In this document: positions 5,027-17,710 of the stretch, piece after piece
Layout of the letters: each line of letters opens with the position of its first letter
Numbering within the stretch: position 1 is the first letter of the stretch
Assembly: GCF_001293685.1 (NCBI RefSeq)
Contig: NZ_BCAG01000006.1
Location: 744,001 to 808,000 of the forward strand
Reading direction: 5' to 3'
Source of the DNA: Desulfatitalea tepidiphila
Lineage (GTDB): Bacteria > Desulfobacterota > Desulfobacteria > Desulfobacterales > Desulfosarcinaceae
DNA length: 64,000 nucleotides
Translations under genes and position numbers: made by a program
Notes under the pieces: generated by a model
What the model was told of the DNA's origin: nothing
Seen by the model: only the letters and a program-made list of their open reading frames with translations
The model's database searches: none

Positions 5027-5758
5027 TCAGGAGAGGCGATGAGGCAAGGGCTGGTTCAGGGAGATGCCCTCGAGGTCGATGGAGACATCGTACACGACGA
5101 TCTCCACACCCTCTGAGACGACCTCACGAAGACGTCGTCCATACTCCGGATCGATCGCATCCGCCGGCTCGAAAACCTGTGCATCGCAGCGCTGCACCAC
5201 GAAGAACATCATTGCCCGGGTGCCGCTGTTTTTGATGGCGAGCAATTCGTCCAGATGCTTCTGCCCCCGCACCGTGCGGGCGTCCGGAAACCTCGCTACG
5301 CCCTGTTCCACCAGAGTGCAGTTTTTCACTTCTACGTAGCAATCGGTACGACCGATGCCGCTGAGCTTGATATCCAGGCGCGAATGCGCGCTCACCTTGA
5401 CCTCGGTGGCCACCTGTTCATATCCTGCCAGTTCCGGCACAGCGCCGTGGGACGCGGCCAGCGCCACCAGCCGGTTGGGCACCAACGTATTGATGCCCAC
5501 CAGGGAGGTGGGCATCTCGATCAGTTCCCACGTATACTTCAACTTGCGTTTGGGATCGTCATGGAACGAGAGGTAGACCGGGCGCCCGGGTTCGCTGCAG
5601 GCCGCCATGCTGCCCGAGTTGGGGCAGTGCGCCGTTACCGCTCGGCCATCGTCCAGGACCACGTCGGCCAGAAAACGCTTGTAGCGCTTGACGAGCGTTC
5701 CGCGCACCAGGGGAGACCAGAGCCATCGGGCGGATGCAACGGCTGTTTTTTGTTTCAC
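5027..5758 (-). CDS. sfsA: SfsA family protein (sugar fermentation stimulation protein homologue)
   Basis: 243 aa, full length for the family. Characteristic segments are AHCPNSGSM (N-terminal OB-like part), RLDIKLSG, CYVEVKNCTLVE and FPDARTVRGQKHLDEL, the last carrying the acidic/Lys nuclease-like core of SfsA. The biochemical role is not settled: E. coli SfsA was described as affecting maltose metabolism and DNA binding, and its fold is nuclease-like. It is last in a minus-strand run hisI-hisG-aminotransferase-sfsA, 21 bases after the aminotransferase gene, so probably co-transcribed. Confidence 0.92.
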   Translation of the reverse strand: MKQKTAVASARWLWSPLVRGTLVKRYKRFLADVVLDDGRAVTAHCPNSGSMAACSEPGRPVYLSFHDDPKRKLKYTWELIEMPTSLVGINTLVPNRLVALAASHGAVPELAGYEQVATEVKVSAHSRLDIKLSGIGRTDCYVEVKNCTLVEQGVARFPDARTVRGQKHLDELLAIKNSGTRAMMFFVVQRCDAQVFEPADAIDPEYGRRLREVVSEGVEIVVYDVSIDLEGISLNQPLPHRLS

Positions 5759-5779
5759 GAGGCGGCTCCGAAATATCTC

Positions 5780-6925
5780 TTACCCGATACGCCGCTGTAC
5801 ATACGCTTGCAGGCTGTCGAGCCCTTCGCGGATATTTTCCAGGGAGTTGGCGTAGGAGAAGCGCAAAAACCCTTCACCGCCGGCACCGAAATCGATGCCC
5901 GGCGTGACGCCCACATGCGCCTGTTCCAAAATGTCGAAGGCCAGGGCGTAAGAGTCCTGGGAAAGGTGCCCGGCATTGACGAAGACATAAAAGGCACCTG
6001 TGGGTTCCACGGCGATTTGAAAACCGATCTCCTTGAGTCGTCGCACCATAAAACGCCGTCGCTCGTCGTAGATGGCCACCATGCGGGCCACGTCCGCTCC
6101 GGCCCGGGTCAGGGCGGCGATGCCGGCCATCTGTACGGCGGCATTGGCCGAGATGAAAAAATTCTGATGCAACTTCTGGATGGGCCGCACAAACGGTTTG
6201 GGTGCGATGAGATATCCCAGGCGCAGGCCGGTCATGGCATAAAGCTTGGAGAAGCCGTTGACCACGAAGGCGCGGTCGGTGAACTCGAGAATCGAGTGGG
6301 CTTTGCCCTCGTAAACCAGGCCGTGATAGATCTCGTCGGAAAGCACGTAGGGCCCCATCTGGGCGATGGCCCGCATGCGGTCGGCCGAAAGCAGAGTGCC
6401 GGTGGGGTTGGCCGGTGAATTGATGAAGACGGCGCGGGTGCGGGATCCGAGACGCTCCTGGATCTCCTCCGGCCGGTATTGAAAACCGTCGGTCTCGCTC
6501 ACCGGCACGGTCACGCAGCGTGCTTGCAGGAAATTGACGAAGTTGGGGTAGCAGGCATAGTGGGGGTCTGACAGGATCACTTCGTCACCGGCCTCGAGCA
6601 GGGCGGCGCAGGCCATGAAGATGGCCGGCGAGCTGCCCGCCGTGACCACGATCTGATCCGGGTCCACCGTCACGCCGTACTTTTCGTGATAATCGCCGCA
6701 GATCGCCTCGCGCAAAGCCGGCAACCCCAGGCTGTGGGTGTAGTGGGTGAACCCGTCGGCCATGGCCCGGCAGACGGCCTCGGTCACACATGGCGGTGTG
6801 TCGAAGTCCGGCTCGCCCACTTCAAGGTGGACGATGTCGATGCCCCGGGCCGCCATCTCGCCAGCCTTTTCCAGCACATCCATCACGATAAAGGGCGTCA
6901 TCTCGTCGACGCGCTTGGCAACCAT
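5780..6925 (-). CDS. Pyridoxal phosphate-dependent aminotransferase, class I/II
   Basis: 381 aa, fold type I aminotransferase of the aspartate aminotransferase superfamily. Visible features: substrate loop EVGEPDFDTP near the N-terminus, NSPANPTG (the Asn contacting PLP), LSDEIYHGL (Asp/Tyr contacting PLP), the Schiff-base lysine in NGFSKLYAMTGLRLGY, and a C-terminal RFSYANS carboxylate-binding Arg. Amino-group transfer between an amino acid and a 2-oxo acid is expected; the substrate cannot be read from sequence. It lies 16 bases after hisG but resembles aspartate/aromatic enzymes more than HisC, so a histidine-pathway role is possible but unproven. Confidence 0.88.
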   Translation of the reverse strand: MVAKRVDEMTPFIVMDVLEKAGEMAARGIDIVHLEVGEPDFDTPPCVTEAVCRAMADGFTHYTHSLGLPALREAICGDYHEKYGVTVDPDQIVVTAGSSPAIFMACAALLEAGDEVILSDPHYACYPNFVNFLQARCVTVPVSETDGFQYRPEEIQERLGSRTRAVFINSPANPTGTLLSADRMRAIAQMGPYVLSDEIYHGLVYEGKAHSILEFTDRAFVVNGFSKLYAMTGLRLGYLIAPKPFVRPIQKLHQNFFISANAAVQMAGIAALTRAGADVARMVAIYDERRRFMVRRLKEIGFQIAVEPTGAFYVFVNAGHLSQDSYALAFDILEQAHVGVTPGIDFGAGGEGFLRFSYANSLENIREGLDSLQAYVQRRIG

Positions 6926-15358: not shown

Positions 15359-16207
15359 ATGGAGATCAAAACCTTTGGCGTGGTGGGCGCCGGTCAGATG
15401 GGCTGCGGCATCGCCCAGGTGGCGGCTCAAAGCGGCCTGAACGTGATCATGAACGACATCAAGGACGAATTCGTGCAACGCGGTCTGAGCACGATCACCA
15501 AATTCTTCGACAAGGGGATTCAAAAGGGCAAGCTGACCGAGGCCCAGAAGAGTGATGTCCTCGGACGCATCCAACCGAGTACGTCCCTGGACGATATGGC
15601 CGGCGCCGACTTCGTGGTCGAAGCCGCCGTGGAGCGCGAAGACCTCAAATTCGAGATCTTCCGCAAGCTGGACAAGATCTGTCGGCCCGAAGTGATCCTG
15701 AGCACCAACACCTCGTCCATCCCCATCGGCCGCATCGCCTCCCAGACTTCGCGGCCGGCCCAAGTCATCGGCATGCACTTCATGAACCCGGTGCCCCTGA
15801 TGAAACTCGTCGAGGTAATCCGGGGCATCGCCACCTCCGAAGAGACCTTCAAGACCACCTGGGACCTCTCGGTGGAGTTCGGCAAGACCCCGGCCGAAGC
15901 CAACGACTACCCCGGCTTCATCGCCAACCGCATTCTTCTGCCCATGATCAACGAAGCGATTTTCGCCCTCTACCATGGCGTGGGCACCCGCGAAGCCATC
16001 GACACAGTCATGCAGCTCGGCATGAACCACCCCATGGGCCCGCTGACCCTGGCCGATCTCATCGGACTGGACACCTGTCTGGCCATCATGGAGACCCTTT
16101 ACGAAGGCTTCAAAGACTCCAAGTACCGCCCCTGTCCTCTGCTTCGCAAGTACGTGGAAGCAGGCTGGCTGGGCCGCAAGACCGGCAAGGGATTCTACGA
16201 GTATTAG
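15359..16207 (+). CDS. 3-hydroxybutyryl-CoA dehydrogenase
   Basis: 282 aa, the length of the stand-alone bacterial enzyme. Rossmann motif [14 protein letters not shown] at the N-terminus binds NAD(P). [20 protein letters not shown] contains the catalytic His, with Glu in VEVIRG, and [11 protein letters not shown] belongs to the C-terminal helical domain. It reduces acetoacetyl-CoA to 3-hydroxybutyryl-CoA or the reverse. A strong AAAAAAGGAG precedes the ATG. It is the second gene of the thiolase pair, and an intrinsic terminator follows 120 bases after the stop. Confidence 0.94.
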
Positions 16208-16329
16208 GAGTACCTGCAACCGCACCTTGCCGGCACGTGCGTGACTTCAGGAAGATAAAAAGCGACGAGCGACCCGCGGGACACCGCTTTTACACACCGC
16301 CAAGAGTTATCGACGGTGGATGAAAGCGG

Positions 16330-16348
16330 CGGCCCTGCGGGCCGTTTT
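16330..16348 (+). terminator. Intrinsic terminator after the thiolase/dehydrogenase pair
   Basis: Stem CGGCCC (16330-16335) / GGGCCG (16339-16344) with a 3-nt loop and TTTT at 16345-16348. Flanking A-rich and T-rich bases can extend the stem. Confidence 0.75.
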
Positions 16349-16411
16349 CCATCCGTTCCATCCAAGCGGCAGCAAAACCCTTCGCTTGGGTTAACTTCGC
16401 ATAGGCACGGA

Positions 16412-16960
16412 TCAGCGAATCAGTTCGTCGATGTTTCGGATCAATGTTTCGGTCTGATTTTCGAGAAGCGAAAACCCGGTGTTCTCCCTGAATAGAATTC
16501 TGCGATCCTTGTCGATGATGATATATACCCGGCTGGCGACCGGAAGCAGCCAGTGCTTGGCATCGTAAGCCCGAATGACTTTCATCTCCTGGTCGGAAAG
16601 CAGGGTCAAATCGTTGAGTTTGTGCCTGGCGATAAATTTACGGTGCGAAGCGGTGGAATCTTTGCTAATGCCGATCACCTGGATATTTCTCGATTCAAAC
16701 TGCGCGATGTTTTGTTGAAACTCAACAAATTCGGCCGTTCAGTTTTTTGTGTCGTCCTTTGGGTAAAAAGCGATCACCGCACCCCGGCGCCCCTCGAGCA
16801 TCCCGCTCAACGTAACTGATTCGTCATTCTGGTCCTGAAGAGTAAAATCCTCGGCCGTGCCACCCACATGGTGAGGGCCAAGCGCCTGGTTGTTCGCCGC
16901 ACATCCAAAAAAAATCAACCCGGCCGAGGCAAGGCCTATCATCAACTTTTTCCGCATCAT
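16412..16960 (-). CDS. Selenocysteine-containing peroxiredoxin (AhpC/TSA-Bcp family lipoprotein, UGA read as Sec)
   Basis: Read through one in-frame TGA at 16741-16739, the frame encodes a complete 182-aa peroxiredoxin. Before TGA: signal peptide with lipobox-like IFFGC (Cys20), then AEDFTLQDQ and AFYPKDDTKN; after it: VIGISKDSTASHRKF, LTLLSDQE and ASRVYIIIDKD. The TGA is codon 74 and falls exactly at the peroxidatic residue of PxxxTxxC (P67, T71, U74). No other Cys follows, so this would be a 1-Sec enzyme reducing peroxides in the periplasm. A perfect hairpin starts nine bases after the TGA (separate entry). Start: GGAGGTGAC precedes two adjacent ATGs (16960 and 16957). Conceptual translation without recoding gives two useless halves ending at 16739. 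A pseudogene is unlikely because the frame is intact on both sides. It is divergent from an OhrR-like gene. Confidence 0.88.
16711..16729 (-). promoter_or_regulatory. SECIS-like hairpin downstream of the Sec UGA
   Basis: On the minus strand UUUGUUGA-GUU-UCAACAAA forms a perfect 8-bp stem with apical loop GUU. It starts 9 nt after the UGA, so the loop is 17 nt downstream, with G first. This matches the known bacterial SECIS layout (hairpin just 3' of UGA, G among the first loop bases) that recruits SelB. Confidence 0.75.
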
Positions 16961-17045
16961 GTCACCTCCTATCACCTTTGGATTGTCAGAAAACGCAAAA
17001 ATTGCCGTTACCACCTGGGGATCTGCCAGAGGGATAAGTTGCTAT

Positions 17046-17068
17046 CACAAAATTTAATTGTGCACAAT
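17046..17068. promoter_or_regulatory. OhrR-like operator, site I
   Basis: CACAA-AATTTAA-TTGTG (17046-17062) overlaps the perfect palindrome ATTGTGCACAAT (17057-17068). The AT-rich layout resembles known OhrR boxes (ACAATT-AATTGT). It lies between the divergent Sec-peroxiredoxin and OhrR-like genes. A related sequence lies at 17099-17114. Confidence 0.55.
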
Positions 17069-17098
17069 ACATTTAGCGCCGACCTATCGATTGTTTTT

Positions 17099-17114
17099 CA
17101 AATTAAATTGTGCA
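17099..17114. promoter_or_regulatory. OhrR-like operator, site II
   Basis: CAAATTAAATTGTGCA repeats the site I sequence CAAAATTTAATTGTGCA (17048-17064) in the same orientation, 51 bp closer to the regulator gene. Two spaced sites suggest control of both divergent promoters by the MarR-family protein encoded next door. Confidence 0.5.
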
Positions 17115-17152
17115 AAACTCAAAACAGCTAAAAAATAACAGGGGCTTTTCTA

Positions 17153-17620
17153 ATGGAAAACGATGCGCTTCTCAGGTTGGATAACCAGCTTTGTTTCGTT
17201 CTTTATGCCTGTTCGCGAGGATTGACCAAGACCTATCGGCCCCTGCTGGCCAAGCTGGACATTACCTACCCGCAATATCTGGTCATGCTGATTTTATGGG
17301 AAAAGGACGGGGTCAGCATCAAGGCCCTCGGTGAGAAACTGTACCTTGACTCAGGCACCCTGACACCGCTGCTCAAACGGCTGGAGTCCGCCGGCCTGGT
17401 CGAACGGCGGCGATCCAGCACGGATGAGCGCGTGGTGCAGATCTATCTGACCCAAAAAGGACTGAATTTGAAGAAGAAGGCCTATGCGGTGCCCGAAACA
17501 CTGTTGTGTCGGAGCGGATTGACCGTAGACCAGTTCATCGGGCTCAAAACCCAATTGACCGCACTGCTCGAACGAATCCGTGCCTTCGATGCCGCCACCA
17601 ACAGTTGTCTTCCCGAGTAG
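17153..17620 (+). CDS. MarR-family peroxide-sensing regulator, OhrR-like
   Basis: 155 aa with MarR winged-helix core: ITYPQYLVMLILWE, SIKALGEKLYLDSGTLTPLLKRLE (recognition region) and the wing VERRRSSTDERVVQIYLT. The N-terminal DNQLCFVLYACSR closely follows OhrR, whose reactive Cys (Cys15 in B. subtilis) corresponds to Cys14 here; Cys20 is an extra nearby thiol. OhrR proteins release DNA when this Cys is oxidised by organic hydroperoxides. Divergent orientation from the Sec-peroxiredoxin and repeated AT-rich sites between them suggest that it represses both genes. No ohr gene is present. Confidence 0.87.
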   Translation: MENDALLRLDNQLCFVLYACSRGLTKTYRPLLAKLDITYPQYLVMLILWEKDGVSIKALGEKLYLDSGTLTPLLKRLESAGLVERRRSSTDERVVQIYLTQKGLNLKKKAYAVPETLLCRSGLTVDQFIGLKTQLTALLERIRAFDAATNSCLPE

Positions 17621-17710
17621 GAATAATGGCAGCATCCGCTGAGACGCGTGTCCATCCCTGGAAGAGGCCAATCGGGTCGAGATCCCTGCTCAAGACCGAC
17701 AGGACAGGCC

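Follow-up and report, generated by a model that had tools for sequence, protein, structure and literature searches.

Does a TGA triplet inside a minus-strand reading frame of Desulfatitalea tepidiphila end one short gene ahead of another, or does it encode the catalytic residue of a single peroxidase? The triplet lies in a stretch of 64,000 nucleotides (assembly GCF_001293685.1, contig NZ_BCAG01000006.1, positions 744,001 to 808,000), hereafter the window, in whose numbering positions are given unless another contig or locus is named. An earlier note, written from the letters alone, had proposed at this place a peroxiredoxin lipoprotein with selenocysteine (Sec, U) at its peroxidatic site. The reading favored here, held at a probability of about 0.8, is that of a predicted OhrR-controlled, exported peroxidase with one Sec that would act in place of Ohr. 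The OhrR-like regulator, the two operator-like sites beside it and the apparently Sec-only subfamily to which the protein belongs are new here and were absent from the earlier note. The gene and its immediate signals are as follows.

16412 to 16960, minus strand: coding sequence of the Sec-peroxiredoxin, a predicted lipoprotein of 182 residues with Sec74; ATG at 16960 (or 16957), stop TGA at 16414 to 16412.
16739 to 16741, minus strand: TGA codon 74 at the peroxidatic site, read as selenocysteine on the strength of TGA in 17 of 17 members and the Sec machinery.
16965 to 16970, minus strand: Shine-Dalgarno-like AGGAGG, read directly from the sequence.

Positions 16960 to 16412 hold a single frame running from M1 to R182, with one internal TGA (codon 74, 16741 to 16739) and a terminal TGA. 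The frame is intact on both sides of the internal triplet, as had been claimed; the start, which may be either ATG of the opening MM, is a small correction. The read-through protein matches the Pfam family AhpC-TSA across the TGA at 3.1e-29 and 101.9 bits (cut-off 26). The mechanical list of open reading frames (ORFs) cuts the gene into 16739-17014 and 16412-16678, the split foreseen for automated calling, and each half aligns in order to the same model, the first with profile positions 1-39 (24.9 bits, slightly below the cut-off) and the second with positions 63-121 (37.8 bits). The internal TGA directly follows PKDDTKN and takes the place of the peroxidatic Cys in PxxxTxxC. PxxxTxxC/U together with a conserved Arg is the peroxiredoxin signature (TxxU also occurs in published text), and its elements in the window protein are P67, T/S71, U74 and R144. 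The sole other Cys, Cys20, falls within the predicted signal peptide. Sequence comparison confirms the locus as one peroxiredoxin of the AhpC/TSA fold with TGA at the peroxidatic position.

The split by the ORF list is also what would be seen if the TGA were a true stop, or arose by sequencing error, and what follows it were a remnant, whether of a pseudogene or of two short genes. Relatives of the protein bear directly on this alternative. When 97 relatives were searched with the window protein, three full-length members came up (its own and those of genomes G007 and G002) with one TGA each; of the 12 loci from a scan of named genomes, 10 were full members, G007 and G002 again included. An 11-row profile was then run against 395 genomes of the organism's own phylum, seven of which hold a member, and 392 of the spirochaete phylum, five of which do. 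All 12 members found by profile have one TGA each and score 258-304 bits, while the next matches reach 93.5 and 92.6 bits. With repeats removed, and with G319 and L064 (identical protein) taken as one genome, 17 distinct members remain. The other 16 are 42-93% identical to the window protein, P67, U74 and R144 are invariant across the 17, and the peroxidatic codon is TGA in all 17 and Cys in none. Past the TGA, only six residues differ from the G007 protein over 109 codons. The presence of the same TGA in every member, across numerous assemblies and no fewer than two phyla, excludes sequencing error or a pseudogene for practical purposes.

One distant sequence lies on the other side. Genome G003, also in this genus, contains L029, a contig-end fragment (1498-1932) with 34% identity across residues 48-180 and with Asn (AAC) at the Sec place, neither Cys nor Sec; L029 counts against the selenoprotein and toward the remnant. 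It keeps a family-like C-terminal tail, AQTQTLLEEID, and sits on a very long branch in the tree described below. Its scores with the subfamily profiles are 55-57 bits, against the 258-304 bits of members, so it is taken as a decayed or repurposed paralogue, possibly a pseudo-peroxidase. The objection raised in the earlier note, that an orthologue might carry some other sense codon, therefore has one case, distant and truncated, and none among the 17 members.

The stretch just past the TGA adds a second line of evidence. The 54 nucleotides from the TGA onward align without gaps across all 17 members and contain a hairpin like those of the selenocysteine insertion sequence (SECIS).

16711 to 16729, minus strand: SECIS-like hairpin UUUGUUGA-GUU-UCAACAAA, 8 bp, its loop beginning 18 nt past the UGA.

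Bacterial SECIS elements are hairpins just past the UGA with a G in a small apical loop, and a spacing of 18 nt is within their range. The hairpin is paired in all 17 members, and two of its pairs are changed on both sides, from U-A to C-G, in one sequence each (G002 and G319). In a shuffle test on 15 distinct rows, 2 of 500 shuffles did as well as the real alignment in both-side changes, in paired percentage or in covariation score; the number of pair types was no higher than in shuffles. Synonymous identity averages 0.93 in the seven hairpin codons versus 0.48 in 51 other comparable codons, a value reached in none of 20,000 random codon draws. Against a SECIS element, the window hairpin taken alone is only moderately stable (z of −2.08, with 10 of 200 shuffles as good), and Rfam SECIS_1 finds no match in the organism's own genome, which carries no weight because all 14 controls were silent too. 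The case for a SECIS element is built on conservation and covariation. The conserved hairpin, with its compensatory changes and synonymous constraint, is as expected of one.

The machinery needed to read the UGA is complete. The organism's own genome (a 5.61 Mb assembly in seven contigs) holds selA, selB, selC and selD above their family cut-offs: selA at 620 bits (cut-off 267.9), selB at 374 bits (cut-off 242.25), the tRNA-Sec at 73.4 bits (cut-off 47) and selD at 380 bits (cut-off 125), the last itself with one in-frame TGA. The window itself holds no tRNA gene detectable by ARAGORN. The objection that the genome might lack Sec machinery fails, as does that of a sequencing error, and the probable selenoprotein of the earlier note is supported by machinery, TGA conservation and covarying hairpin together. 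Sec at codon 74 is well supported by these comparisons. The same three results and the conservation past the TGA rule out two separate genes, a pseudogene or a sequencing error, and leave the idea of a true stop followed by a remnant a negligible chance. The in-frame TGA of SelD (G000:C1:801085-802008, L051) recurs in the SelD of G007 and G002.

The members form a group of their own. In a tree of 94 rows (113 loci with a match, 19 repeats dropped), the 17 members and the long-branched L029 make one set with support of 99/99, and the PrxQ/Bcp rows, whether Cys or Sec, lie outside it. The window protein falls below all 15 NCBIfam cut-offs listed for it, among them those of the nearest equivalogs, PRK09437 (66.4 bits, cut-off 140) and PrxQ (60.9 bits, cut-off 260). 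For the other 16 members, judged by match counts and best E-values, the best NCBIfam value is 2.7e-20, to PRK09437. The group is a new and apparently Sec-only subfamily within a selenoprotein class already known. The closest named holders of the gene are Desulfatitalea sp. UBA4791 and D. alkaliphila M08but, whose proteins are 92% and 49% identical, respectively. Within the organism's own family the gene is present in 3 of 30 genomes, all three among the 11 of its own genus, and its distribution is thus patchy. In the tree the window and G007 proteins join L064 (98/96) and not G002, although G002 is of their genus; this placement suggests that the gene was transferred laterally. L064 is labelled Myxococcota in the tree, yet G319 was counted in the organism's own phylum in the profile search.

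Comparison with known Sec peroxiredoxins shows what is shared and what is not. Sec peroxiredoxins with TxxU are a listed selenoprotein family (in the available parts of PMC13188914 and PMC9312934), and the available part of PMC1794560 also counts a peroxiredoxin among selenoproteins; neither "lipoprotein" nor "signal peptide" appears in the main text of any of the three papers. The Sec peroxiredoxins of anaerobic bacteria with PxxxTxxU (COG1225/Bcp type) have the fold and TxxU active site in common with the window protein. The window subfamily differs from them in its N-terminal signal, the lipobox-like Cys found in all members but one, the absence of Cys from the mature part and the absence of any Cys form among the members found. 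Sec Bcp-like rows of this order stand elsewhere in the tree. They include a second Sec peroxiredoxin of the same genome, Bcp-like and with one TGA (G000:C4:88597-88890, L060). PrxU (NF040737), an AhpC-like Sec peroxiredoxin, also has Sec at the peroxidatic place, but belongs to the AhpC class with a 1-cysPrx_C extension, and the window protein scores 31.5 bits against the PrxU cut-off of 270. Two Sec peroxiredoxins of Planctomycetota (L072 and L073), with a FYPKAMTGGU site and signal-like N-termini, fall outside the subfamily.

Where would such an enzyme work? Its N-terminus points outside the cytoplasm.

16901 to 16960, minus strand: predicted lipoprotein signal peptide with lipobox Cys20 (codon 16903 to 16901), by a PROSITE-like pattern.

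The border between signal and mature part is set at the lipobox place. Of the 17 members, 16 have a Cys there; a strict PROSITE-like lipobox pattern fits 14 (the window protein and 13 others), and two more have the Cys without the pattern. Lipoprotein export, as the earlier note had it, thus stands as a prediction for most of the subfamily and falls short in one member: L110 (genome G162) has Gly instead of the Cys, with its signal-like N-terminus kept. This, and the Phe at both −3 and −2 of the window lipobox, weigh against a lipid anchor. Export is nevertheless probable, with an anchor on Cys20 as the likely form. The mature part contains Sec and no Cys in all 17 members, which bears out the proposal of a 1-Sec enzyme with no further Cys.

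The same features invite a different activity on the same fold. An exported thiol/selenol oxidoreductase, similar to the disulfide reductase ResA, would also fit a protein that is exported and lacks a resolving Cys, and there is a weak ResA match (1.6e-08, 34.7 bits, cut-off 170). The sequence has PxxxTxxU with the conserved Arg144 and no CxxC or UxxC, its best matches are Bcp/PrxQ-type peroxidases, and OhrR, Ohr, PrxU and rubrerythrin-like genes are neighbors in various members. An oxidoreductase other than a peroxidase is accordingly rated very improbable. An Ohr-like fold for the effector was likewise considered and ruled out, the fold being AhpC/TSA and the genome having no TIGR03561 match.

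What would switch on the predicted peroxidase is suggested by the gene that diverges from it.

17153 to 17620, plus strand: OhrR-like regulator of MarR type, encoded divergently; its Cys14 (within LDNQLCF) and Cys119 make it a two-Cys type by position.
17050 to 17068, minus strand: OhrR-box-like site 1, ATTGTGCACAATTAAATTT, by pattern match.
17100 to 17118, minus strand: OhrR-box-like site 2, GTTTTGCACAATTTAATTT, by pattern match.

The regulator is of MarR type, and its closest NCBIfam model is OhrR NF052638 (3.5e-56, 188.9 bits). It is the one close copy in the genome, where the next relatives are at most 36% identical. In Sinorhizobium meliloti, OhrR binds two adjacent sites between the divergent ohr and ohrR genes, with GCAAATTAATTTTG as motif 1 (in the part of PMC3107159 available). 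The corresponding sequence is GCACAATTAAATTTTG in the window, which also has a second site like it, and GCGCAATTTAATTTTG in G007. With up to three mismatches allowed, a 19-base pattern built from the window and G007 has three matches in the 5.6 Mb genome, and the best two (zero and two mismatches) are the window sites; the same pattern read backward gave one match. For the other members, upstream stretches of 600 bases were each compared with 200 Markov copies, with L063 (10 upstream bases only) left out. The OhrR-linked clusters of G002 (L069) and G486 (L068) have sites matching 17 and 18 of 19 bases, equalled by none of the 200 copies, and L067 has 14 of 19 on just 83 upstream bases (2 of 200). 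No similar box is present in the 10 tested members that lack OhrR (two being near-copies): their best sites match 11-13 bases and are equalled by at least 111 of 200 copies. The L066 and L068 sites are some 500 bases upstream, where an ORF without a Pfam match begins. This ORF (L066:4424-4909, L068:4457-4861) separates the OhrR-box-like site from the Sec-peroxiredoxin; its predicted proteins have similar ends in the two loci, a likeness partly shared by G002. A sigma-70 scan of 16200-17700 gave two promoter-like sites versus 1.0 expected, neither between the boxes of the two genes.

Several observations count against control by OhrR. The regulators of the window, G007 and G002 score 188.9, 187.3 and 171.9 bits with NF052638, all under its cut-off of 200, and those of L066, L067 and L068 are identified by motif only. 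The L066 site is weak, its 15 of 19 matches being reached by 10 of 200 Markov copies. An OhrR gene adjoins no more than 6 of the 17 members, divergently in the window and G007 and downstream in G002, L066, L067 and L068. No peroxide gene was recognized next door in L070, L071, L106 and L109; SelB- and SelA-like genes lie near L071, by likeness. In this survey the upstream flank of L063 lay outside the data, and for L115 the ORF list served as the basis.

These counts leave room for a selenoprotein that merely neighbors OhrR and is constitutive or answers to another regulator, such as the extracytoplasmic function (ECF)-type sigma factor seen in other members. An ECF-type sigma gene and a rubrerythrin-like gene lie upstream in L064; L065 has a rubrerythrin-like gene and a sigma-like one upstream, and so has L115, the L065 sigma and the two L115 genes being assigned by sequence likeness only. 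The divergent layout with two boxes like the ohr-ohrR operators of S. meliloti (PMC3107159, in the part available), the rank of the window boxes as the two best pattern matches in the genome, and the recurrence of such a box in the clusters of G002 and G486 but in none of the 10 tested members without OhrR argue the other way. Independence from OhrR is thus considered unlikely, if less so than the other alternatives, and OhrR control remains the preferred reading.

Other members have different peroxide genes at hand. In L107 a PrxU gene (NF040737, 422 bits; 5561-6286, minus strand) and a rubrerythrin-like gene lie upstream, and the same PrxU frame with a TGA is present, by sequence likeness, in L108 and L110. 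In these three loci the PrxU selenoprotein is directly upstream, so that two different Sec peroxidases stand in tandem. In G002, Ohr (TIGR03561) follows OhrR, and Ohr and Sec-peroxiredoxin share one cluster. Ohr, which OhrR usually controls, was found in G002 only among 17 genome handles, which cover 16 of the 17 members (the L064 genome is given twice and G707 left out), and was not detected in the organism's own genome; in this search some assemblies were incomplete (G007 at 73%), and the controls matched in 10 of 14 cases, five of them above cut-off.

Taken together, these features present a model of how the system may work. From them we infer lipidation, OhrR control, substrate and reductant as follows. 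The OhrR-type repressor would probably close the promoter at its two operator sites. An organic hydroperoxide would oxidize Cys14, which may form a disulfide with Cys119, and the repressor would leave to permit transcription. SelB and Sec-tRNA would insert Sec at the UGA, with the hairpin as guide. The product would be a PrxQ/Bcp-like peroxidase of the thioredoxin fold, exported, probably lipid-anchored on Cys20, with Sec74 as its sole redox residue. At the cell envelope it may reduce organic or lipid hydroperoxides by way of a selenenic acid. Because there is no resolving Cys, a reductant from outside the protein would be needed, and the selenenic acid may be recycled by an outside thiol or, the host being a sulfidogen, by sulfide.

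Parts of this model have precedents. The OhrR-Ohr system of S. meliloti shares the divergent layout and paired AT-rich operator-like sites with the window locus (PMC3107159, available part), whereas the effector here is a Sec peroxiredoxin, predicted to be a lipoprotein, in a genome where Ohr was not detected. In Pseudomonas aeruginosa, OspR, an OhrR homologue, controls a glutathione peroxidase, gpx, that is induced by organic hydroperoxides (PMC4999210, available part). That pair likewise joins an OhrR homologue to a peroxidase other than Ohr; its peroxidase belongs to another family, and the available part of PMC4999210 mentions no selenocysteine. A partial literature search, covering titles and the starts of abstracts, found neither OhrR with a selenoprotein peroxiredoxin nor a lipoprotein Sec-peroxiredoxin, which is no proof of novelty.

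The selenoperoxidases of GPX4 type in animals are single-Sec enzymes that act on membrane peroxides and belong to another thioredoxin-fold subfamily. By analogy, and tentatively, with the odds against it, the window protein may be an envelope counterpart of GPX4: a lipid-anchored, Sec-only peroxidase that would repair organic or phospholipid hydroperoxides outside the cytoplasm, draw on sulfide or small thiols there as reductant, and have come under OhrR in place of Ohr in some anaerobes. If true, this would be an organic-peroxide circuit with a Cys sensor and a Sec effector, passed between lineages as a cassette.

Ordinary gene calling can split Sec genes of this sort in two. Sec and Cys forms occur side by side in many selenoprotein families, whereas 17 Sec and no Cys forms were found here, which suggests that Sec may be essential to this enzyme and not optional. 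The lack of a resolving Cys raises the question of what reduces the enzyme outside the cytoplasm. The link to OhrR would provide a testable trigger and tie selenium use to organic-peroxide defense at the envelope of anaerobes.
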